Assembly (NCBI RefSeq): GCF_003402535.2
Contig: NZ_AP025171.1
Coordinates: 744,001 to 808,000, forward strand
DNA: 64,000 bases
DNA from: Cupriavidus sp. P-10
GTDB taxonomy: Bacteria; Pseudomonadota; Gammaproteobacteria; Burkholderiales; Burkholderiaceae
Direction: 5' to 3'
Shown here: positions 12,632 through 22,143 of the stretch, piece by piece
Layout of the letters: every line of letters begins with the position of its first letter
Numbering within the stretch: the stretch's first letter is position 1
Made by a program: the position numbers and the translations under genes
The notes under the pieces: model-generated
The model's database searches: none
The model's input: the letters and a program-made list of their open reading frames with translations, nothing else
What the model was told of the DNA's origin: nothing

Positions 12632-13792
12632 TCAGGCCACTTCCAGCACCAGGTTGCGATAGATCTCGCACGCGCCGTCCAGCTGCTCCAGCGCGATCGA
12701 TTCATCGATGGTGTGCGCGTCCTCCTCGCACCCCGGCCCCAGCCCGATGGTCGGGATACGGCGGCGGCCGGCCGATTCGGAGCCGTTGGTGCAGAACGCC
12801 CAGCTTCCGACCTGCGGCGAACGCCCGGCTTGTGCGATGGCGCGCACCGCGGCCTGCACGAGCGGGGTGCTTTCCGGCTGCTGCCATGCCGGCAGCCAGC
12901 GGGTCGGCCGCGCCGATTCGCCGGTGAAGGTCCGCACCTCGTCGTCGGACACCGCCAGTGTGAAGTCATGCAGGCCATTGGCGCGCAGGCAGCTGCCGAT
13001 CTGGCCGAGGATGTCCTCGCGCGTCTCGCCGCCCAGGGTGCGGCGGTCAAAGCGGATGGTGGCCGAAGTCGGGATCATCGAGATCGACGGATACGGCGAC
13101 GAAACGATGTCCGTCGGCACCAGCAGTGCGGCGCCAAGGACCGGGTCGACCGGCAGTTGCAGGCCTTCCAGCGCCGTCAGCGCACGCGCGGCGGCGAGCA
13201 GAGGATTGACGCCAAGGTGCGGCGTCGCCGCATGCGCGGGTTTGCCGTGGAAGGTGAGCTGGATTTCCAGCCGGCCTTTCTGTCCCGTCTTGACCTGCAG
13301 CTTCGAAGGTTCGCAGATAACCACCGCATCCGGCTCGCAACGGCCCAGCACCGATGCCAGCGCATGTCCTTCGATCACTTCCTCCAGCACGCTGGCGGAA
13401 ACCGCGACGCGCTTGCGCAGCGGCCGCTCCCGCGCCGCCGCGGCAACGCCGCAGATAGCGGCGGCGATGCCGCCCTTCATGTCGGTGCTGCCGCGCCCGT
13501 ACAGCCGGCCGTCGTGGATGGTGCCGCCGAACGGCTCGAAGCGCCACGTGCCGGTGACAGGCACCACGTCCATATGGCCGTCGAACAGCAGCGCCACGTC
13601 CGCGTCCTCGGGGCCGATCAGCCCGAGCACGCTACCGTTTGCGTCCATCGTTACCGACGTGAAGCCGGCTTCGGTCATGCGTCGGGACAGCAGGGCAGCG
13701 AGGTCGCCCTCCTGGCCAGACAGGCTGGGAATGCGCACCATCTCGCGGGTCAGCGATGCGACGTCACTGAGATTGCTTGCGGGATCGATCAT
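12632..13792 (-). CDS. YgeY-like M20 family metallohydrolase (ArgE/DapE type)
   Basis: A 386-aa zinc hydrolase of the ArgE/DapE (M20) family. Metal and catalytic motifs are DGHMDVVP, GRGSTDMKGG, EEVIEGHA and CEPSKLQVKTGQKG. The latter, with DRRTLGGET, WAFCTNG and IGLGPGCEEDAHT, lines up closely with E. coli YgeY as I remember it, more than with ArgE or DapE. YgeY lies beside ygeX (diaminopropionate ammonia-lyase) in the E. coli purine/ureide cluster, and here the ygeX-like gene is in the same operon. It is the last gene, 19 bp after the MFS stop. It probably hydrolyses an amide or ureide bond of the operon's substrate; the exact substrate is unknown. Confidence 0.85.
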   Translation of the reverse strand: MIDPASNLSDVASLTREMVRIPSLSGQEGDLAALLSRRMTEAGFTSVTMDANGSVLGLIGPEDADVALLFDGHMDVVPVTGTWRFEPFGGTIHDGRLYGRGSTDMKGGIAAAICGVAAAARERPLRKRVAVSASVLEEVIEGHALASVLGRCEPDAVVICEPSKLQVKTGQKGRLEIQLTFHGKPAHAATPHLGVNPLLAAARALTALEGLQLPVDPVLGAALLVPTDIVSSPYPSISMIPTSATIRFDRRTLGGETREDILGQIGSCLRANGLHDFTLAVSDDEVRTFTGESARPTRWLPAWQQPESTPLVQAAVRAIAQAGRSPQVGSWAFCTNGSESAGRRRIPTIGLGPGCEEDAHTIDESIALEQLDGACEIYRNLVLEVA

Positions 13793-13811
13793 GTCGGTAA
13801 GTCTCTTGTTG

Positions 13812-15155
13812 TCAGCGGTTGACCAGCGCGGCCGGCACGCGCAGCACCAGCAGCGCGCCGATCACGGTGAAGGAGGCGAGGAAGTACATGCCCCAGTCGG
13901 TCGAGCCGGTCAGGTCCTTGATCCAGCCGATCGCATACGGGCTGGCAAAGGCGGCGAGGCCGGCGAAGGAATTGATCGCCGCAATGCCGGCCGCCGCGCT
14001 GCGCCCTTCGAGGAAGGCGGTCGGCAGGCTCCAGAACAGCGGCGAGCAGACCATGCACCCGGCCGCCGCCACCGACAGCATCGCCACCGCGAACGCGGGG
14101 TTATGGCTGAACATCGTGCTGAGCGCCAGGCCGGTGCCGCCGACGAGAAAGGGGATGACCATGTGCCAGCGGCGCTCGCGCGTCTTGTCGGAATGCCGGC
14201 ACACCAGGATCATCGACACCACCGCGAACGCATTCGGGATCGCCGTCAGCAGGCCGACGTCGAGCAGCGAGACCACGCCCGTCGAGCGGATCACCGACGG
14301 AATCCAGAATGCCAGGCCAGACAGGCTGGAGACCGTGCAGTAGCAGATCAGCGCCATATGGATCACGCGGCGGTCGCGGAACAGCCTGAGCAGCGATACG
14401 TGCTCGGTCTTGCTTCCCTTTTCCGCCGCGATGTTGTGGGCGAGGCGGTGCTTCTCGGCCGCGCCCAGCCAGCGTGCATCGGCGATGCTGTCGTCCAGGT
14501 ACCAGAGCACGGCAATCCCGAGCACGACCGATGGAATCGCTTCGAGCAGGAACATCCATTGCCAGCCGGCAAAGCCGTAGTGCTCGTGCATGCTCTCCAT
14601 GATCCAGCCCGACAGCGGTCCGCCGAGGATGCCCGCCACCGGCACCGCGGTCATGAAGACCGCGATCACCTGGCCGCGCCGGTGCGACGGGAACCAGTAG
14701 GTGAGGTACAGGATGATGCCGGGGTAGAAGCCCGCCTCGGCGGCGCCGAGCAGGAAGCGCAGGATGTAGAACTGCGTCGGCGTCTTTGTCAGCGCCATGC
14801 AGGCCGAGATGCAGGCCCACAGGATCATGATGCGCGCCAGCGTCTTCTTGGCGCCGATGCGGTGCATCAGCACGTTGCTCGGCACTTCGAACAGGAAGTA
14901 GCCGATGAAGAAGATGCCGGCGCCAAGGCCGTACACCGTGTCGCTGAACTTGAGCTGGTCCAGCATCTGCAGCTTGGCGAAGCCGACGTTGACGCGGTCC
15001 AGGAAGGCCGCCACGTAGCAGGCCATCAGGAAGGGCAGCAGTCGCCAGGCCACCTTGCGGTAGAGCGCGTTGTCGTGCGCTGCCATCGTGTCGGATGTGT
15101 TCGGGGTCGCGGCCGGGGCGCGAAGCGCCGGCGCGGATTGCAGGGAATCGCTCAC
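13812..15155 (-). CDS. MFS transporter, anion:cation symporter (ACS) family
   Basis: A 447-aa permease with 12 predicted helices. The ACS-family opening is RVNVGFAKLQML, with YGLGAGIFFIGYFLFEVPSN and the loop RHSDKTRERRWH. GTG at 15155 is taken as the start, because GGAGG lies six bases upstream and it follows directly on a leader; an ATG further up lacks a binding site. Within the operon it is the obvious importer for the carbamoyl or ureido compound processed by the neighbouring enzymes. It is clearly paralogous to the MFS protein at 50235-51563. Confidence 0.88.
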   Translation of the reverse strand: MSDSLQSAPALRAPAATPNTSDTMAAHDNALYRKVAWRLLPFLMACYVAAFLDRVNVGFAKLQMLDQLKFSDTVYGLGAGIFFIGYFLFEVPSNVLMHRIGAKKTLARIMILWACISACMALTKTPTQFYILRFLLGAAEAGFYPGIILYLTYWFPSHRRGQVIAVFMTAVPVAGILGGPLSGWIMESMHEHYGFAGWQWMFLLEAIPSVVLGIAVLWYLDDSIADARWLGAAEKHRLAHNIAAEKGSKTEHVSLLRLFRDRRVIHMALICYCTVSSLSGLAFWIPSVIRSTGVVSLLDVGLLTAIPNAFAVVSMILVCRHSDKTRERRWHMVIPFLVGGTGLALSTMFSHNPAFAVAMLSVAAAGCMVCSPLFWSLPTAFLEGRSAAAGIAAINSFAGLAAFASPYAIGWIKDLTGSTDWGMYFLASFTVIGALLVLRVPAALVNR

Positions 15156-15196
15156 TATGTTCCTCCTTTGGATTTGGTGAGACAACAACGCCCCCT

Positions 15197-15218
15197 GCGG
15201 GCGCCCGGAGGCGCCTGC
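15197..15218. promoter_or_regulatory. stem-loop between carbamoylase and MFS genes
   Basis: GCGGGCGCC / GGCGCCTGC (8 Watson-Crick pairs plus a G-U) around a CGGA loop, in the 110-bp gap inside the operon. The T-run that would make a terminator lies on the plus-strand side, so on the operon's own strand it is more likely a processing or stabilising hairpin, or an antisense terminator. Confidence 0.45.
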
Positions 15219-15265
15219 ATGTTCTTTTTATCTCGATTAGGGAAGGGGGCGGGAAAGTGCGCCGG

Positions 15266-16213
15266 TTAAGCGGCGGCCAGCGCCTGCGGTGGTGTGGCGC
15301 CGCGCTGGCTGGTGATGCGGCCGTAGGCCTCGGGGCGGCGGTGCCGCGCGAAGTTGAAGGTCGTGGTCTTGTACGACTGGCACAGGTCGAGGTCGCAGCG
15401 CGCGATGGCCAGCTCGTCGCCCTTGGTCGAGCAGGCCGCGACGATCTCGCCCGACGGCGCGATGATGCAGGTGCCGCCGATCATCTCGCAGCCTTCTTCC
15501 TTGCCGGCCTTGGCCACGCCGACCACCCAGGTGCCGTTCTGGTAGGCGCCGGCCTGCATCACCAGGTGGTTGTGGAACATCGACAGGTCGTCGTGCTCCG
15601 GCGCGGGCGGGTTGTGCACGGGGGTGTTGTAGCCCAGCAGGATCATTTCCGCGCCTTGCAGGCCCATCACGCGATAGGTCTCCGACCAGCGGCGGTCGTT
15701 GCAAAGCGCCATGCCCATGACGCCGCCGAACCCCTGCCAGACGCCGAAATCGTCGCCCGGCTCGAAATAGCGCTTTTCCAGGTGCTGGAAGGCGCGCCAG
15801 GGCTCATGCTGGTCGTGGCCGGGCAGGTGCACCTTGCGGTATTTGCCGATGATCTTGCCATCGCGGCCGACGAGGATGGCGGTGTTGTAGCGCCGTTCCG
15901 CGCCACCTTCGCGCGCCAGTTCCGCATAGCCGAGGTAGAAGCCGATGCCGAGCCGCGCGGCGGTGTCGAACAGGATGCGCGTCTCGGGGCCGGGCATCTC
16001 GCGCTCGTAGAAGGCGTCGAGGGCTTCGGGGTCTTCCATGTACCAGCGCGGGAAGAAAGTGGTCAGCGCCAGTTCCGGGAACACCACGAGGTGGCAGCCC
16101 ATTTCGTGGGCATGGTGCAGGTGGGCCAGCAGGCGGGCGACGACGTCGCGGCGCGAGTCGCTGCGCTGGATCGGACCGAGCTGGGCTGCGGCAACGTGGA
16201 CGATGCGGGACAT
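15266..16213 (-). CDS. N-carbamoyl-D-amino acid hydrolase
   Basis: A 315-aa nitrilase-superfamily enzyme that removes the carbamoyl group from N-carbamoyl-D-amino acids, releasing CO2, NH3 and the D-amino acid. The catalytic triad is visible: E47 (FPELALTTFFPRW), K127 (YRKVHLPGH) and C171 (CNDRRWSE). Further family-specific segments are AFQHLEKRYFEPGDD, GYNTPVHNPPAPEHD and QAGAYQNGTW, which match the D-carbamoylases of Agrobacterium closely. Cytoplasmic. It follows an L-carbamoylase gene in the same operon, giving the cell both stereospecificities. No hydantoinase is present in this window. Confidence 0.93.
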   Translation of the reverse strand: MSRIVHVAAAQLGPIQRSDSRRDVVARLLAHLHHAHEMGCHLVVFPELALTTFFPRWYMEDPEALDAFYEREMPGPETRILFDTAARLGIGFYLGYAELAREGGAERRYNTAILVGRDGKIIGKYRKVHLPGHDQHEPWRAFQHLEKRYFEPGDDFGVWQGFGGVMGMALCNDRRWSETYRVMGLQGAEMILLGYNTPVHNPPAPEHDDLSMFHNHLVMQAGAYQNGTWVVGVAKAGKEEGCEMIGGTCIIAPSGEIVAACSTKGDELAIARCDLDLCQSYKTTTFNFARHRRPEAYGRITSQRGATPPQALAAA

Positions 16214-16243
16214 GATTGGGAGTCTCCTGTTATGCGGGGAATG

Positions 16244-17491
16244 TCAGGCGGCAAGTTCGAGCATCAGGTCGAGCAGCACGTCGGCGCCGGCCTGGATGTC
16301 GCGGTCGTGGGTCAGTTCGGCGACGTTGTGCGAAAGGCCGGCCACGCTCGGCACGAAGATCATGCCGGCGGGGCACATGCGGGCGAGTATCTGGGCGTCG
16401 TGCCCGGCGCCGCTCGGCATGCGCCGCACGCTGTGTCCGTGCCGGCGCGCGATGGCTTCGACGCGGTCGACCATGCCGGCGTCGAACGCCACCGGTGCGA
16501 AGTCGGCCAGCGTGCGCTGGCTGAGGCGAACGCCCTCGGCCTTCGCCACGTCCTGCGCATAGGCCAGCGTGCGCTGCACCGCATCCGTCAGCACGGCGCC
16601 GTCGGTATTGCGCAGGTCGACCGTGAACACCGCGCGGTTCGGGATCACGTTGACGAGGTTCGGGAAGTACTGCACCTGGCCGACGGTTGCGAGCTGCGCG
16701 CCGCCCAGCTCGCGCGACAGGTCGCGCACGAAGCAGGCGACGCGCGCGGCGACCAGGCCCGCATCGTGGCGCAACCGCATCGGCGTGGTGCCGGCATGGT
16801 TGGATGTGCCCTCCACGGTGAATTCGGTCCAGTGGATGCCCTGCACGCCAGTGACCGCGCCGATGGCGATGTCCTCGTGCTCAAGCACCGGGCCCTGCTC
16901 GACATGCAGTTCGACGAAGGCATGCACGCGATTGCGGCCCACTGGCGCAGGGCCGGCATAACCGATCCGGGAAAGGTTCTCGCCAACCGTGGTGCCATCG
17001 ATGCCGCGCGTGCCAAGCGCCTGCTGCAGTGGCAGGTCGCCCTGGAACACGAGGCTGCCCATCATGTCCGGGGCAAAGCGCGCGCCTTCCTCATTGGTGA
17101 AGAACGCAACCGCCAGCGGGTGGCGCGTGACGATGCCGGCGTCGTCCAGCGCGGCCATGACTTCCAGGCCGGCGAGCACGCCGAGATTGCCGTCGTAGCG
17201 CCCGCCCGTGCGCACGGTGTCGATATGCGAGCCGGTCATTACCGGCGGCAGGTCTTCGCGGCCGGCGCGCACGCCGACCACGTTGCCGATACCGTCGATG
17301 CTGACCGCCAGTCCCAGCTCGCGCATCCACGACACCACCAGATCGCGCCCCGCGCGGTCTTCGTCGGTCAGCGCGAGCCGGCAGACCCCGCCGCCGTCGA
17401 TGGCGCCGACTTCGCCGAGCATGGCGATGCGGCGCAGCAGCCGAGGCAGGTCGATCCGCGCGGTTCGCGCAAGGTCGAGGGTCGCGTTCAC
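16244..17491 (-). CDS. N-carbamoyl-L-amino acid hydrolase/allantoate amidohydrolase family (HyuC type)
   Basis: A 415-aa M20 metallohydrolase of the hydantoinase/carbamoylase family. Bimetal ligands are seen in GSHIDTVRTGGRYDG, FFTNEEG, ELHVEQG, SGAGHDAQ and LSHNVAE. Family members act on N-carbamoyl-L-amino acids, beta-ureidopropionate or allantoate, which cannot be told apart by eye. Its start overlaps the stop of the diaminopropionate ammonia-lyase gene by 4 bp, so the two are translationally coupled. That is the strongest hint that its product feeds the lyase. Confidence 0.9.
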   Translation of the reverse strand: MNATLDLARTARIDLPRLLRRIAMLGEVGAIDGGGVCRLALTDEDRAGRDLVVSWMRELGLAVSIDGIGNVVGVRAGREDLPPVMTGSHIDTVRTGGRYDGNLGVLAGLEVMAALDDAGIVTRHPLAVAFFTNEEGARFAPDMMGSLVFQGDLPLQQALGTRGIDGTTVGENLSRIGYAGPAPVGRNRVHAFVELHVEQGPVLEHEDIAIGAVTGVQGIHWTEFTVEGTSNHAGTTPMRLRHDAGLVAARVACFVRDLSRELGGAQLATVGQVQYFPNLVNVIPNRAVFTVDLRNTDGAVLTDAVQRTLAYAQDVAKAEGVRLSQRTLADFAPVAFDAGMVDRVEAIARRHGHSVRRMPSGAGHDAQILARMCPAGMIFVPSVAGLSHNVAELTHDRDIQAGADVLLDLMLELAA

Positions 17492-18720
17492 GCTGCCTTC
17501 CTTACGTCTTCCGGCAGGCGGCCGACGATGCGCTGGTACAGCGCCACATCGGTCGCGCCTTCGCTGCCGAACACCAGCACCCGGCTGGCGGCGTCGAGGC
17601 CAAGCTGTTCGCGCGTGGTGGGATCTGCCATGGCGCCAAGGCAGCCGGCCAGCCCCGCGACCGCCGATTCGCCGGCGACGATGGGGGCATCGCCATAGCG
17701 GCCGTCGGCCAGCAGGCGCACGCTTTCCAGCGCGGAGGCATCGTCGATGGTCAGGAACGCATGCGCGCCGGGATGCAGCACTTCCCAGGCCAGCAGCGAG
17801 ACTTCGCCACAGGCGAGCCCGGCCATCACCGTGTCGAGGTCGCCATGGACTGCCACCGGCTTGCCGGCGCGAGCGCTTTCATACAGGCAGGCGGCCTGGT
17901 CCGGCTCGACCACGATAAAGCGGGGGCGCTTGTCGCCGAGCACTTCCCAGAAGTGCGCGCACACGGCGGCTGCGAGCCCGCCCACGCCTCCCTGCAGGAA
18001 CACGTGGGTCGGCAACTGGCCGTCCGGCAACTGGCGCAGCGCCTCGTCGGCCATCACCGCGTAGCCCTGCATCACGTCCTTGGGCACTTCCATATAGCCT
18101 TCATAGGAGGTGTCCGAGACCACGAAGCGCCCCAGCCGGGCCGCGTCCTCGGCCGCCTGGCGTACCGAATCGTCGTAGTTGCCCGCGGTGCGGACCACCT
18201 GCGCGCCGTATTGCTCGATGGCGGCCTTGCGGCCTTCGCTGACGGTGGCGTGGATATAGATCACGCACTGGCAGCCGAAGCGTTGCGCGCCCCAGGCCAC
18301 GGAGCGGCCGTGGTTGCCGTCAGTGGCGCAGGTGACCGTGATATCCCGCACCGCGTCGGCATAGCGGCCCGATAGCAGGTCGTCGACCGACACGTCGCCC
18401 ACACCCAGCCGGCTGCCGATCTCGCGCACCAGCAGGCGGCTGACCGCGTAGGCGCCGCCCAGCGCCTTGAAGCTGCCCAGCCCGAAGCGGTCGCCTTCGT
18501 CCTTGTAAAGGATCTGTGCGACACCGGCGGCTTGTGCAAGGCCATCGAGTGCGACCAGCGGCGTCGGCGCGTAGCCCGGCCAGCGGCGGATCTGCGTGGC
18601 GGCGCGGGTAAAGGCTTCGCCGCCGAGCACGGCTTGCTGGCGCGTGCCGTAGGGCGCGCCGGGCGTGGCCGCCGGGTTCAGCGCGCACTGCAGCTTCAGG
18701 TTGGGGAGCGGGTGGTTCAA
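17488..18720 (-). CDS. dpaL: diaminopropionate ammonia-lyase
   Basis: A 410-aa PLP enzyme (fold type II, YgeX/DpaL) converting 2,3-diaminopropionate (either enantiomer in the known enzymes) to pyruvate and two ammonia. PLP Lys85 lies in GLGSFKALGGAYAV. The phosphate/substrate loop region is CATDGNHGRSVAWGA, and a Gly-rich cofactor loop lies in FLQGGVGGLAAA. The length is normal for the family. It is the first enzyme gene of the operon, 21 bp after the RpiR regulator, and overlaps the L-carbamoylase gene. It yields pyruvate for central metabolism. Confidence 0.93.
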   Translation of the reverse strand: MNHPLPNLKLQCALNPAATPGAPYGTRQQAVLGGEAFTRAATQIRRWPGYAPTPLVALDGLAQAAGVAQILYKDEGDRFGLGSFKALGGAYAVSRLLVREIGSRLGVGDVSVDDLLSGRYADAVRDITVTCATDGNHGRSVAWGAQRFGCQCVIYIHATVSEGRKAAIEQYGAQVVRTAGNYDDSVRQAAEDAARLGRFVVSDTSYEGYMEVPKDVMQGYAVMADEALRQLPDGQLPTHVFLQGGVGGLAAAVCAHFWEVLGDKRPRFIVVEPDQAACLYESARAGKPVAVHGDLDTVMAGLACGEVSLLAWEVLHPGAHAFLTIDDASALESVRLLADGRYGDAPIVAGESAVAGLAGCLGAMADPTTREQLGLDAASRVLVFGSEGATDVALYQRIVGRLPEDVRKAA

Positions 18721-18741
18721 GACAGTCTCCTGGGTTGGGTT

Positions 18742-19590
18742 CTAGCGATGTAAATCGCCGTAGTGGTCATGCAGCGATTCGATTTCTTCGAGCCGCTCGC
18801 GCGCCGCGTCGCCGAGGATCAGCGCGAGGCCTGTGCAAAGGTGGTTGATCAGGCTGACGGCCGCGACATAGGAGTCGAACACCGCCGCACCGTGGTTGAC
18901 GCAGCGAAGCACCACGTCAGAGCGCGCCGGCAGGTCGGTCGCGCTGGGGTCGGTCAGGATCACGACCTTGGCGCCGACGCGGTTGGCGTGGGCCACCATG
19001 GGCCACAGCAGCGTCACGCGCCGGCGGAAGTCCATCACCAGCAGCACGTCGTCTGCGCCGAGGTCGGCCAGGTCTTCAGCAAGGTTCAGCCCGGCGCCCG
19101 GCGCCAGCGTCACGCCCGGCCGCAACTGGGTCAGCAGCGCCCACGCGTATTGCGCCAGCACGCGGCCGTTGCGGAAGCCGGCGATAAAGACCCGCCCGGC
19201 GCCGGCGAACAGCGCGACGGCGCGCTCGACATCGGCCGGATTCAGGCGGTCGAAGGTCTGGGCGAGGTTCTGCAGGTCATTGGACAGATGGCGTGCCAGC
19301 GGCGCCTGGTCGTCGGCAGGAGCCTGCACGCCGGCCAGCTCGTACAGCGGCGAGCCGCGGTCGGCCTCGTCGCGCAGCAGGGCGCGGACTTCATTGAAAT
19401 TCTCATAGCCGAGGCGGCGGAAGAACCGCCCGGCGGTCGCCTTGGACACGCCGGCCTTCTGCGCCAGTTCGGTAGCCGAGTAGGCGGCGAGGTTGCCAAT
19501 GCACTCCAGGGTCACGGCGGCCAGGCGGCGCTCGCTTTCGGTGAGCTGGTCGTTCAGTGCGAGGATCTTGTCTTGCAACGATGAGGTCAT
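18742..19590 (-). CDS. MurR/RpiR family transcriptional regulator
   Basis: A 282-aa regulator with an N-terminal RpiR helix-turn-helix ([20 protein letters not shown], then [12 protein letters not shown]) and a C-terminal SIS domain (about residues 120-260: [18 protein letters not shown], then [12 protein letters not shown]). Known SIS domains bind phosphosugars, but RpiR members also control amino acid and ureide genes. The ATG at 19590 gives the usual length. Three copies of a TGAAAC-N4-GTTTCA palindrome overlap its promoter, so it is autoregulated and, being first in the operon, controls the downstream catabolic genes. Confidence 0.9.
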
Positions 19591-19603
19591 GATCGGGTCC
19601 GAA

Positions 19604-19679
19604 TGAAACTTCGGTTTCAGAAATATAGGCCGATGAAACTTTGGTGTCAAACAAAATTATTCATGAAACTTTGGTTTCA
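19604..19679. promoter_or_regulatory. three phased RpiR operators
   Basis: Three 16-bp palindromes TGAAAC-N4-GTTTCA at 19604-19619, 19634-19649 (one mismatch, GTGTCA) and 19664-19679. Their starts are exactly 30 bp apart. The first lies just downstream of the -10 element, the second fills the spacer between -10 and -35, and the third is upstream of -35. This is the arrangement expected for cooperative repression of the operon promoter. Confidence 0.8.
19622..19650 (-). promoter_or_regulatory. near-consensus sigma-70 promoter of the RpiR operon
   Basis: Read on the minus strand: TTGACA (19650-19645), a 17-bp spacer, and TATATT (19627-19622). Transcription would begin near 19615, about 25 bp before the RpiR start codon. 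Strong match to consensus, and overlapped by the operators. Confidence 0.75.
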
Positions 19680-19776
19680 TGATGGGGATTGTCGCGCACA
19701 TGCGAGCGTCGGGTCGAGGGCGGCCCTCGCTTCGCTAAAATCACCCGATAGCGGTTTCATTCCAAAAGGCTCAAGC

Positions 19777-22143
19777 GTGGCACTCCAGCAGGGTTTCATC
19801 CTGACCCGGCATTGGCGCGATACGCCGGCCGGCACCGAGGTCGAGGTCTGGCTGGCCACCGACGACGGGCCGCGCCGGCTGCGCCTGCCGTATCAGCCGT
19901 CGATTGCATTTGTCCCCGAGGCACAACGCGAGCGTGCCGAGGCGCTGCTGCGCCGCGAGCGCGAGGTCGAGTTGCGCCCGCTGAAGTTGCAAGACTTCCG
20001 GGGCAGGCCGGTCATGGGCCTGTACTGCCAGCAGCATCGGCAGCTGATCCAGCTCGGCCGTTCGCTGCGCGAGGCCGGCATCGACCTCTACGAAGCCGAT
20101 ATCCGCCCGCCCGAGCGCTACCTGATGGAGCGCTTCATCACGGCGCCGGTCTGGTTCGAGGGCGAGCCGGACGGCGACGGCGTGCTGTGCAACGCCCAGC
20201 TGAAACCCGCGGCGGACTACCGGCCCACGCTACGGCTGGTGTCGCTCGATATCGAAACCAACGCCTTCGGCGAGCTTTACTCGATTGCGCTCGAAGGCTG
20301 CGACCAGCGCCAGGTCTACATGCTGGGCGACGCGCCAGCGGCACCGGTCGATGTCGATTTCTCGCTCGAATATTGCGCGGCACGACCCGAGTTGCTGGAG
20401 AAGCTGAACCAGTGGCTGGCCCATCACGACCCCGACGCGATCATCGGCTGGAACCTGGTCCAGTTCGACCTGCGCGTGCTGGTCGAGCATGCCCGCCGCT
20501 TGCAGGTGCCGTTGCGCCTCGGCCGCGGCGGTGCGGAACTGGAATGGCGCGAGCACAACGCACAGCAGCACTATTTCGCCAGCGCGCCGGGACGGCTGAT
20601 CATCGATGGCATCGAGGCGCTGCGTTCGGCCACGTGGAGCTTCCCGTCGTTCAGCCTGGAATCGGTGGCGCAGACGCTGCTCGGTGAAGGCAAGGCGATC
20701 GACAATCCGTACGACCGCATGGATGCCATCGACCGCATGTTCGAGCAGGACAAGCCGGCACTGGCGCGCTACAACCTGCGCGATTGCGAACTGGTGACGC
20801 GGATCTTCGAGAAGACGGAACTGCTGTCATTCCTGCTGGAGCGCGCCACGGTCACGGGACTGCCGGCCGACCGCAGCGGCGGTTCGGTTGCCGCCTTCAC
20901 GCATCTCTACATGCCGCTGATGCACCGGCAGGGCTATGTCGCACCCAACCTCGGCGAGCTGGCGCCGGAGGCCAGCCCGGGCGGCTTCGTCATGGATTCA
21001 CGGCCGGGGCTCTACGAATCGGTGCTGGTGCTGGACTACAAGAGTCTCTATCCGTCGATCATCCGCACCTTCCTGATCGACCCCATCGGCCTGGTCGAGG
21101 GCCTGGCGCATCCTGGCGATGCCGACTCGGTGCCCGGTTTCCGCGGCGCGCGCTTCTCCCGGACGAAGCACTGCCTGCCGGCGATCGTCGCCCGGGTCTG
21201 GCAGGGCCGCGAGGCCGCCAAGCGCGACCGTAACAAGCCGCTCGCGCAGGCGCTCAAGATCATCATGAATGCGTTCTATGGCGTGCTGGGGTCGAGCGGG
21301 TGCCGGTTCTTCGATCCACGGCTGGCGTCATCGATCACCATGCGCGGCCACGAGATCATGCGGCAGACCCGCGCGCTGGTCGAGGCGCGCGGCTACGAGG
21401 TGATCTATGGCGACACCGATTCCACCTTCGTCTGGCTGCGCCGCGCGCGCACGGAAGCCGATGCGCAGCAGATCGGCCGCAGCCTGGTCGCCTGCGTCAA
21501 CGACTGGTGGCGCGACCACCTGTGGCAGACCTATGGCCTGGAAAGCGCGCTTGAACTCCAGTTCGAGACCCACTTCCGCCGCTTCCTGATGCCGACCATC
21601 CGCGGCACCGACCTTGGCAGCAAGAAGCGCTACGCCGGCCAGGTGGAGCGGGCCGACGGCACGGTCGAGATGGTGTTCAAGGGGCTGGAGACGGTGCGCA
21701 CGGACTGGTCGCCGCTTGCGCAGCAGTTCCAGCAGACGCTTTACGAGAAGGTCTTCAACCGCGCGCCATACCAGGACTATGTGCGCGACATCGTGCGCCG
21801 TACGCTTGCCGGCGAGCTCGACGAGCAGCTGGTTTATCGCAAGCGCCTGCGGCGCAAGCTGGAGGACTATCAGCGCAACGTGCCGCCGCACGTGCGGGCT
21901 GCCCGCATCGCCGACGACTACAACGAGCGCCACGGCCGCCCACGCCAGTACCAGCATGGCGGCTGGATCAGCTATGTGATGACCACGGCAGGGCCGGAGC
22001 CGCTCGAATGCCGATCCGCGCCGATCGACTATGGCCACTACGTCGGCAAGCAGCTGCAGCCGATTGCCGATGCGATCCTGCCGTTCCTGGACGACGACTT
22101 CGAGCGGCTGTTGTCGGGGCAGATGACGCTGTTTCCGCAATAG
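19777..22143 (+). CDS. polB: DNA polymerase II
   Basis: A 788-aa family B DNA polymerase, close in length to E. coli Pol II (783 aa). The proofreading exonuclease motif SLDIET includes D158 and E160. Polymerase motif A is DYKSLYPSI at D420, motif B is [17 protein letters not shown], and motif C is YGDTDST at 544-550, with both Asp present. In E. coli Pol II is SOS-induced and used in restart and bypass; no LexA box is evident here. GTG at 19777 with AAGG eight bases upstream fits best. The open frame continues upstream only because the operator repeats read as codons. It is convergent with the nuclease-like gene. Confidence 0.93.

Follow-up and report, generated by a model that had tools for sequence, protein, structure and literature searches.

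A diaminopropionate ammonia-lyase linked to two carbamoylases: a candidate RpiR-controlled operon for ureido-diaminopropionate catabolism in Cupriavidus sp. P-10

We analysed a window of 64,000 nucleotides from Cupriavidus sp. P-10 (contig NZ_AP025171.1; G000:C2:744001-808000 in our numbering), whose genome comprises 9.08 Mb in five contigs. Its minus strand, from position 19590 (or 19650) to 12632, carries a run of six genes encoding an RpiR-family regulator, a 2,3-diaminopropionate (DAP) ammonia-lyase, a HyuC-type carbamoylase, a D-carbamoylase, a permease of the major facilitator superfamily (MFS) and a YgeY-like M20 hydrolase (Table 1). The first-pass annotation had described six co-directional genes of these families, and both the open reading frames (ORFs) and the family models agree with it; the 4 bp overlap of the HyuC gene with the lyase gene is borne out by the coordinates as well. 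The conserved core of this arrangement is the lyase with the two carbamoylases, referred to below as the trio.

Table 1. Features of the candidate operon and its control region (window coordinates)
Feature	Coordinates	Strand	Basis
RpiR/MurR-family regulator (HTH_6 + SIS)	18742..19590	-	ORF 18742-19650; HTH_6 40.6 (cut-off 28.3)
Diaminopropionate ammonia-lyase family pyridoxal 5'-phosphate (PLP) enzyme	17488..18720	-	Family models, PDB match 4d9g, residues
HyuC-type M20 carbamoylase (L-carbamoylase / beta-ureidopropionase / allantoate amidohydrolase superfamily)	16244..17491	-	TIGR01879
N-carbamoyl-D-amino-acid hydrolase (D-carbamoylase, nitrilase superfamily)	15266..16213	-	PDB 8i99, Glu47/Lys127/Cys171
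MFS permease	13812..15188	-	TIGR00893 and HpaX matches, both below cut-off
YgeY-like M20 hydrolase	12632..13792	-	NF009555 over cut-off; metal-ligand positions intact
Putative RpiR operator box 1, TGAAACTTCGGTTTCA (top strand)	19604..19619		Directly downstream of the -10 hexamer
Putative RpiR operator box 2, TGAAACTTTGGTGTCA (top strand), one mismatch	19634..19649		Overlaps the -35 hexamer TTGACA
Putative RpiR operator box 3, TGAAACTTTGGTTTCA (top strand)	19664..19679		Upstream of the -35 hexamer
Promoter-like site TTGACA-17-TATATT, 11/12 matches	19622..19650	-	Overlapped by box 2

The lyase exceeds the cut-offs of two family models (NF006058, 536 bits, cut-off 276; TIGR01747, 334 bits, cut-off 274), and its best match in the PDB is 4d9g, named diaminopropionate ammonia-lyase (271 bits). 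Escherichia coli YgeX is over the cut-offs of these two models and of TIGR03528 alike. The window protein carries the equivalents of Lys77, Asp120 and Asp189 of YgeX, which we take to be the PLP lysine and the two catalytic aspartates; they are kept in 45/45 trio loci, and across 130 lyase loci the respective counts are 130, 120 and 129. In a quick tree YgeX falls inside a starred set of 10 rows, none of which has HyuC or D-carbamoylase partners, and the window lyase stands apart from this clade. The partner labels are strongly clustered in the tree, with 33 changes against the shuffled mean of 70.8, near-copies contributing to the difference; this tree and the HyuC tree below are without bootstrap and carry long-branch warnings. 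The names 'YgeX-type' and 'YgeY-like', given in the first-pass annotation, need qualifying: each protein exceeds a general family model and falls short of the stricter E. coli-type one, neither is a close counterpart of the E. coli protein (42% and 31% identity, respectively), and the lyase lies outside the YgeX clade of the quick tree.

The HyuC-type protein scores 407.6 bits with TIGR01879 (cut-off 204), and its PDB relatives include N-carbamoyl-L-amino-acid and N-carbamoyl-beta-alanine hydrolases. The family has six genes in the genome at E<=1e-20, the two closest to the operon gene encoding proteins of 47-48% identity. In a quick tree of HyuC proteins, two changes divide the group of own-genome paralogues plus E. 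coli AllC from the HyuC proteins linked to a lyase, L070 forming a long branch. The model label 'allantoate amidohydrolase' was rejected as a statement of function. According to PMC10952681, a characterised enzyme of this type is active on N-carbamoyl-L-amino acids and N-carbamoyl-beta-alanine and inactive on N-carbamoyl-D-amino acids; as it takes both alpha and beta substrates, no narrower specificity is assigned to the operon HyuC from its residues.

The D-carbamoylase has its best PDB match in 8i99, an N-carbamoyl-D-amino-acid hydrolase (441 bits), and is the only copy in the genome at E<=1e-20. Its Glu47, Lys127 and Cys171, presumably the catalytic triad, are intact, as had been noted in the first pass, and are kept in 49/49 homologues from the loci examined. 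With one D-carbamoylase and six HyuC genes genome-wide, and with the same neighbours recurring across genera, the grouping in the operon is not due to chance.

The permease misses the cut-offs of both TIGR00893 (335.6 bits, cut-off 395) and HpaX (305.4 bits, cut-off 615.4), so the safe label is an MFS permease without an assigned substrate. The YgeY-like protein exceeds the cut-off of NF009555 (391.8 bits, cut-off 321); E. coli YgeY is over the cut-off of the stricter TIGR03526. The positions of His73, Asp104, Glu138, Glu161 and His360, which by analogy with the M20 family we assume to be metal ligands, are shared with E. coli YgeY and kept in 21/21 proteins. At more than 300 bits the gene is restricted to a single set in the lyase tree (support 91, not starred), where 21 of the 22 rows have it, and it occurs in half (15/30) of the named trio loci described below. 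The transporter type varies among loci: MFS, tripartite ATP-independent periplasmic (TRAP), amino-acid-type and dipeptide-type ATP-binding cassette (ABC) transporters by Pfam, and a spermidine/putrescine-type ABC transporter by annotation. Thus both the MFS permease and the YgeY-like hydrolase of the operon type are specific to a lineage. Relatives of the hydrolase scoring below the threshold adjoin E. coli-type lyases in L140 (201 bits) and L172 (190 bits). In Alcaligenes faecalis AU14 (L073, 19799-21193) an MlrC-family metallopeptidase (M81) gene directly follows the YgeY-like one.

Partners of the lyase were called by profile searches of all ORFs, at more than 300 bits and within 9.5 kb of the lyase. 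The profiles, ORF lists and thresholds were built from these same loci, and the named and unnamed locus sets partly overlap: for instance, L048 of G021 is the same stretch as L092 of C. basilensis KF708. We left out of the counts L041, L044 and L048, repeating L059, L061 and L092, respectively, and L184, a hydantoinase region. The scan of named genome contigs, leaning to close relatives, yielded 55 lyase loci: 30 with the trio, four with HyuC only, four with the D-carbamoylase only and 17 with neither, seven of the non-trio loci having less than 3 kb of sequence on one side. One locus labelled 'HyuC only', L072, actually holds a D-carbamoylase fused to the lyase.

In the named trio loci the three genes are co-directional (30/30), RpiR is mostly in reach (28/30), and both partners usually lie at most 2.7 kb from the lyase (27/30). 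In three Alcaligenes loci the D-carbamoylase is 7.6 kb away, behind an ABC transporter. These loci represent 14 genera: Cupriavidus, Bordetella, Achromobacter, Acinetobacter, Azoarcus, Alcaligenes, Comamonas, Donghicola, Thermohalobaculum, Thioclava, Fluviibacterium, Gluconacetobacter, Limibaculum and Mesobacterium. The trio is additionally present on two Rhizobium plasmids. The lyase is found in 19/399 genomes of the order (E<=1e-60) and 42/398 genomes of the phylum (E<=1e-50). Besides the window, the 19 order loci comprise four with the trio, four with HyuC only (one being the fusion L135) and 11 with neither; for 39 further phylum loci the numbers are three, 10 and 26, HyuC of L163 being 8.3 kb off. 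Since both these samples mostly lack the trio, it marks a part of the lyase family rather than all of it. The test proposed in the first pass, whether the genes stay together in other genomes, favours the core, given its presence in 30/55 loci, the fusions and the shared operators, but the full six-gene set is one lineage's version.

Named relatives whose lyase is 90-96% identical belong to Cupriavidus; in the C. necator N-1 record NC_015727 the identity is 96.8%. Lyase and D-carbamoylase genes are plasmid-borne in C. necator N-1 (NC_015727 852805-856227, 1.5 Mb) and C. oxalaticus (NZ_CP038636 209103-212530, 1.2 Mb); therefore, the module can sit on secondary replicons.

The lyase and HyuC genes also occur together without the D-carbamoylase in L156-L159, L161, L164, L168 and L170 (families f91 and f95), and in congeners (L051, L052, L054-L056). 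Several such loci add an AsnC regulator or a CpsA/DoeB2-like M20 enzyme, and in L159 a pair of lyase paralogues flanks a single HyuC gene.

Gene fusions link the same enzymes. In a Burkholderiales genome (L135), an 814-residue protein consists of the lyase (residues 2-400) and HyuC (404-812). In an Azoarcus metagenome-assembled genome (MAG; L072), a 717-residue protein combines the D-carbamoylase (2-304) with the lyase (312-716) and is followed by the HyuC gene. The database search with the former gave the lyase-HyuC order in 120/120 matches listed (220 found), including Variovorax, Paracidovorax, Roseateles and Rubrivivax; this search admitted lengths of 0.55-1.75 x 814 residues and hence retrieved fusions by design, providing no measure of how frequent separate genes are. 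Among the 120 matches listed to the latter, out of 5884, there were 10 D-carbamoylase-lyase and two lyase-HyuC proteins, 107 lyases alone and one D-carbamoylase alone. As the searches return many such proteins, the fusions are families rather than single errors. The existence of two arrangements is strong evidence that a single compound, in successive forms, is the substrate of the lyase and of both carbamoylases. Where named, the lyase-HyuC fusions of about 800 residues carry the name of one half, 'diaminopropionate ammonia-lyase' or 'N-carbamoyl-L-amino-acid hydrolase', and the one in Variovorax boronicumulans is called 'allantoate amidohydrolase'; these proteins could be renamed.

The region upstream of RpiR contains three inverted-repeat boxes 30 bp apart. 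At one mismatch or less the pattern has three matches here, a number reached in 0/100 shuffles; there are two promoter-like sites in the region, compared to the shuffled mean of 0.5. As the boxes lie between 19604 and 19679, the RpiR start is likely ATG 19590, not TTG 19650. Box 2 covering the -35 hexamer and box 1 lying just past the -10 hexamer, the layout is that expected for a repressor. The mechanical ORF of a divergent DNA polymerase II gene (19603-22143) starts at these operators; the true start of that gene is therefore probably more internal.

The boxes are shared by other loci. The exact motif TGAAA-N6-TTTCA was found near the RpiR start in 33/43 RpiR-linked loci and in 0/2150 control stretches of the same loci; at one mismatch or less the counts are 36/43 and 16/2150, and for box pairs 28-32 bp apart, 31/43 and 2/2150. 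Of the 43 loci, 40 hold the trio, and some are closely related to each other. No exact box was found at the four plasmid lyase loci L203-L206, and no box at one mismatch or less at five D-carbamoylase plasmid loci with no lyase in the stretch (L207-L211). In the entire Cupriavidus sp. P-10 genome, exact TGAAAC-N4-GTTTCA occurs twice, both times at this operon. A wider regulon was considered and rejected, as there are eight one-mismatch sites, three being these boxes, compared to 10 for the reversed control pattern. Judged by these box matches, the RpiR regulon in this genome is a single operon. In Achromobacter agilis LMG 3411 (L068) RpiR, the lyase and the operator are kept, and no HyuC, D-carbamoylase, MFS or YgeY-like genes were found in 6.6 kb of downstream sequence, which looks like a natural loss of the remaining operon genes.

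Based on this linkage, we consider it rather likely that the six genes form a dedicated catabolic operon, controlled and probably repressed by RpiR, for ureido derivatives of DAP, chiefly 2,3-diureidopropionate (DUPA) and/or albizziin (2-amino-3-ureidopropionate). The ureido compound would be imported by the MFS permease. The D-carbamoylase, judging by the D-specificity of its family, would remove the 2-ureido group of the D/R form, and HyuC, in the window also the YgeY-like enzyme, would remove the 3-ureido group, as E. coli YgeY does on albizziin; alternatively, HyuC may act on the 2-ureido group of the L form. The lyase would then convert DAP of either configuration into pyruvate and ammonia, as published for YgeX. 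Hydrolysis of ureido groups by these families yields CO2 and NH3, and the route would be a hydrolytic counterpart of the phosphorolytic YgeW/YqeA branch. RpiR would bind the three promoter boxes and be released by a pathway intermediate. With the operon-type YgeY-like gene missing from half of the named trio loci, it is simplest to assign the 2-ureido group to the D-carbamoylase and the 3-ureido group to HyuC. Under this division the lyase-HyuC pairs and fusions would handle albizziin alone, and the YgeY-like enzyme of the window may share or replace the 3-ureido step.

The central idea of the first-pass annotation, that carbamoyl groups are stripped from a ureido-DAP before the lyase acts, gains support from the conservation of the core, the gene fusions and the shared operators, all of this being genomic evidence. 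The route was also called self-contained, which would be correct only if an open-chain compound is imported, as the operon has no hydantoinase and a further operator site was not found in the genome.

Much of the chemistry is known. In the lower urate pathway, as presented in PMC12507026, HyuA opens the hydantoin to DUPA, YgeW or UacY removes the 2-ureido group, YgeY removes the 3-ureido group of albizziin, and YgeX follows, YgeY and YgeX together giving pyruvate; YgeX is stated to be equally active on the L- and D-isomers. The claim that no described pathway matches the operon therefore stands, within the literature searched, for the gene set, but the conversion of DUPA via albizziin and DAP to pyruvate has been published for anaerobic urate degraders (same source). 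A commentary (PMC12990295) leaves undecided in which order the ureido groups are cleaved and mentions a proposed R configuration for the anaerobic intermediates; for DUPA of this R/D form, a D-carbamoylase would suit the 2-ureido group. As early as 2008, YgeX and YgeY appeared in a table alongside selenium-linked genes (PMC2276186). PMC4016543 deals with an allantoate carbamoyltransferase, and PMC8407117 and PMC10149814 contain the lyase as a table entry only; these three papers did not serve as evidence.

Two types of loci connect the trio to genes for possible upstream steps. Plasmids of Rhizobium sp. ACO-34A and R. daejeonense carry D-carbamoylase, HyuC and lyase genes along with a divergent RpiR gene, an ABC transporter and a dihydropyrimidinase. 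Their RpiR, annotated 'hypothetical' in ACO-34A, is 46-47% identical to that of the window. A one-mismatch box lies between the lyase and RpiR; on the other side of RpiR, before the transporter-hydantoinase genes, there are two boxes at a distance of 30 bp, one exact and the other with a single mismatch. The plasmids are close relatives (their hydantoinases are 98% identical) and so count as one observation. In a soil MAG (L086), the RpiR gene is divergent and has an exact box; after it come, all in one direction, genes for the lyase, HyuC, the D-carbamoylase, a YgfK-like protein, Xdh, an SsnA-like protein and a transaldolase-family protein. The Xdh protein exceeds the cut-off of TIGR03311 (886.7, cut-off 830.45). 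Relatives of the YgfK-like protein at 86-89% identity include several from Pleomorphomonas, and other genera have less similar ones. Enzymes of the YgfK, Xdh and SsnA kinds form ureidomethyl-hydantoin from urate in the published pathway (PMC12507026). In the region L172 of G596 the lyase is accompanied by YgeW-, YgeY- and HyuA-like genes.

We tentatively suggest, as a possibility somewhat short of probable, that DUPA is the natural substrate of the operon D-carbamoylase lineage in a hydrolytic pathway made up of the lyase, HyuC and the D-carbamoylase, in places as bifunctional fusions; that aerobic proteobacteria thereby use DUPA or ureidomethyl-hydantoin coming from anaerobic urate degraders or plants; and that in some alphaproteobacteria these enzymes replace YgeW/YgeY in full reductive urate pathways.

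Several observations weigh against the ureido-DAP assignment or its urate extension. Both partners are missing in 17/55 named, 11/19 order and 26/39 phylum lyase loci. Conversely, the lyase is near the D-carbamoylase in just five of the 12 plasmid rows listed (45 records); five of the remaining seven were opened, and none of these has the lyase. One of these five, R. oryzihabitans, joins the D-carbamoylase with an RpiR gene, a Zn-dependent (HyuC-type) hydrolase and a hydantoinase, with neither lyase nor box. Ten of the 43 RpiR-linked loci have no exact box, and seven of these have none at one mismatch or less. The window lyase scores below the cut-off of the stricter E. coli-type model TIGR03528 (359.6 bits, cut-off 532.25), as does the YgeY-like protein for TIGR03526 (217 bits, cut-off 321.5). 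Hydantoinase is absent from the window operon, none was found near its operator, and searches with E. coli HyuA and the host's own D-hydantoinase (E<=1e-15) found none in the fetched flanks of the trio loci of the genome sets. In L086 the Xdh protein differs in type from E. coli XdhD (TIGR03313 231.8, cut-off 1101.9), the YgfK-like protein matches only the N-terminal part of its model (TIGR03315 395.6, cut-off 835.3), the SsnA-like protein is below the cut-off (264 for NF005540, cut-off 444), the reading frame of the D-carbamoylase stops prematurely, covering positions 1-223 of the 311 in the model, and no hydantoinase was seen in the 13.3 kb of this single MAG contig. A second genome combining the trio with YgfK/SsnA was sought: 1/398 phylum genomes gave a partial match (G596), and 0/385 genomes of the class of G447 gave any, in a search without a positive control.

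The hydantoinase matches obtained in the locus search were in L172, L137 and L081, none of them a trio locus, so that the two Rhizobium plasmids are the only places where the enzyme was found beside the trio. The sole TIGR02033 match over the cut-off in the host genome (C1:2970780) is on another contig, beside an amidase and a transporter. No YgeW-like ORF (E<=1e-15) was seen in the searched trio loci, the locus searches not extending to UacY; neither YgeW nor UacY is among the six operon genes, and SsnA (TIGR03314) is above the cut-off in 0/40 genomes of the genus, the host included. Xdh-like and YgfK-like hits at two further loci were discarded as urate-pathway evidence: the L100 hit fits best, below the cut-off, PRK13984 'putative oxidoreductase', and the L070 hit is XdhA/4-hydroxybenzoyl-CoA-reductase-like and below all cut-offs. 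Xdh-like hits also occurred at L160 and L179.

An unlikely but serious alternative assigns the two carbamoylases to different enantiomers. Racemic N2-carbamoyl-DAP or DUPA, derived from 5-aminomethyl- or 5-ureidomethyl-hydantoin, would be imported or formed; HyuC would act on the 2-ureido group of the L form and the D-carbamoylase on that of the D form, the 3-ureido group would fall to the YgeY-like enzyme, and the lyase would accept both isomers of DAP, with the same product. HyuC-type enzymes and D-carbamoylases are indeed the L- and D-specific partners in hydantoin clusters, PMC10952681 reports activity of a HyuC-type relative on N-carbamoyl-L- and not on N-carbamoyl-D-amino acids, and the Rhizobium loci add a dihydropyrimidinase. 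However, the 15/30 named trio loci lacking the operon-type YgeY-like gene would have no obvious 3-ureido hydrolase unless it is HyuC, and for many pairs of lyase and HyuC no D-carbamoylase is within reach (the label 'HyuC' was given to 23 loci, to L072 wrongly).

General scavenging of N-carbamoyl-amino acids, with the carbamoylases freeing mixed L/D-amino acids and the lyase being a broad beta-eliminating enzyme (acting, e.g., on D/L-serine), seems improbable. The D-carbamoylase clusters without the lyase (5/5 opened) and the sub-threshold TIGR03528 score would agree with it, but the fusions of the lyase to carbamoylases in both arrangements imply that the enzymes have one intermediate in common, residues equivalent to Asp120 and Asp189 of the E. 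coli DAP lyase are invariant in the 45 trio loci, and urate-pathway-type genes are linked in L086. Finally, import of another N-acyl DAP, such as plant oxalyl- or acetyl-DAP, with the M20 enzymes as deacylases, is made plausible by CpsA/DoeB2-like M20 enzymes adjoining some non-trio lyases, but is very improbable here, as it leaves unexplained the intact Glu/Lys/Cys D-carbamoylase in every trio locus examined and its fusion to the lyase.

The candidate operon for ureido-DAP resembles several known systems. With the reductive urate pathway (HyuA-YgeW/YqeA-YgeY-YgeX in E. coli, the UacY variant in C. difficile) it shares an enzyme of the DAP lyase family, a YgeY-like M20 enzyme and the expected conversion of DUPA/albizziin to DAP and pyruvate. 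Unlike the urate cluster, it has no XdhD, YgfK, SsnA, HyuA or YgeW, and has its own permease and RpiR; the D-carbamoylase and HyuC occupy the place of YgeW/UacY, and the lyase is outside the YgeX clade of the quick tree. The hyu clusters, e.g. that of Aminobacter (PMC3546935), similarly combine a D-carbamoylase with an L-carbamoylase/beta-ureidopropionase-type enzyme, and the Rhizobium relatives of the operon do contain a dihydropyrimidinase. However, the window operon lacks a hydantoinase, and its carbamoylases are coupled, in places fused, to a DAP lyase, so that the product amino acid is specified. In reductive pyrimidine degradation (PydC / beta-ureidopropionase), an enzyme of the HyuC superfamily can in principle hydrolyse 3-ureidopropionate, but neither dihydropyrimidine dehydrogenase nor dihydropyrimidinase is among the six operon genes. 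The searched literature (titles and abstract openings, most subscription papers being outside it) yielded no description of a lyase-carbamoylase operon, fusion or regulon. The locus would bring together enzyme families that are known and chemistry that largely is, the novelty lying in an arrangement that is hydrolytic, fed by an importer and separately regulated.

D-carbamoylases and hydantoinases are used in industry. By linking a D-carbamoylase and HyuC to DAP cleavage as the one downstream step, the fusions and shared operators give a short list of testable natural substrates and suggest what enzymes known chiefly for their industrial use may do in nature. If the ureido-DAP assignment is true, reductive urate chemistry would extend from the anaerobic gut to aerobic soil and marine bacteria, as salvage or cross-feeding, and hydrolytic enzymes for albizziin and DUPA would be supplied.

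Some other loci provide weaker hints at the same ureide/urate theme. In C. numazuensis (L061, 4712-7615) genes for an NCS2-permease-like protein and a TRZ/ATZ-type amidohydrolase are divergent from RpiR, with a matching pair in C. pinatubonensis (L060). In L112 (6449-8290) an allophanate hydrolase gene (TIGR02713 767.8, cut-off 511) comes directly after the D-carbamoylase.

A second context of the lyase combines it with an Asp/Glu racemase (EutA-like) and an M24 creatinase-type (DoeA-like) enzyme, several loci also having Lrp/AsnC, an M20 aminoacylase or a TRAP transporter. It was observed in L148, L151-L153, L155, L180, L181, L204 (a Photobacterium plasmid) and L206 (an Aliiroseovarius plasmid). 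As neither carbamoylases nor RpiR were found there (L148, L151-L153, L155, L204, L206), it was rejected as an instance of the same system; possibly, it is another DAP-releasing route.

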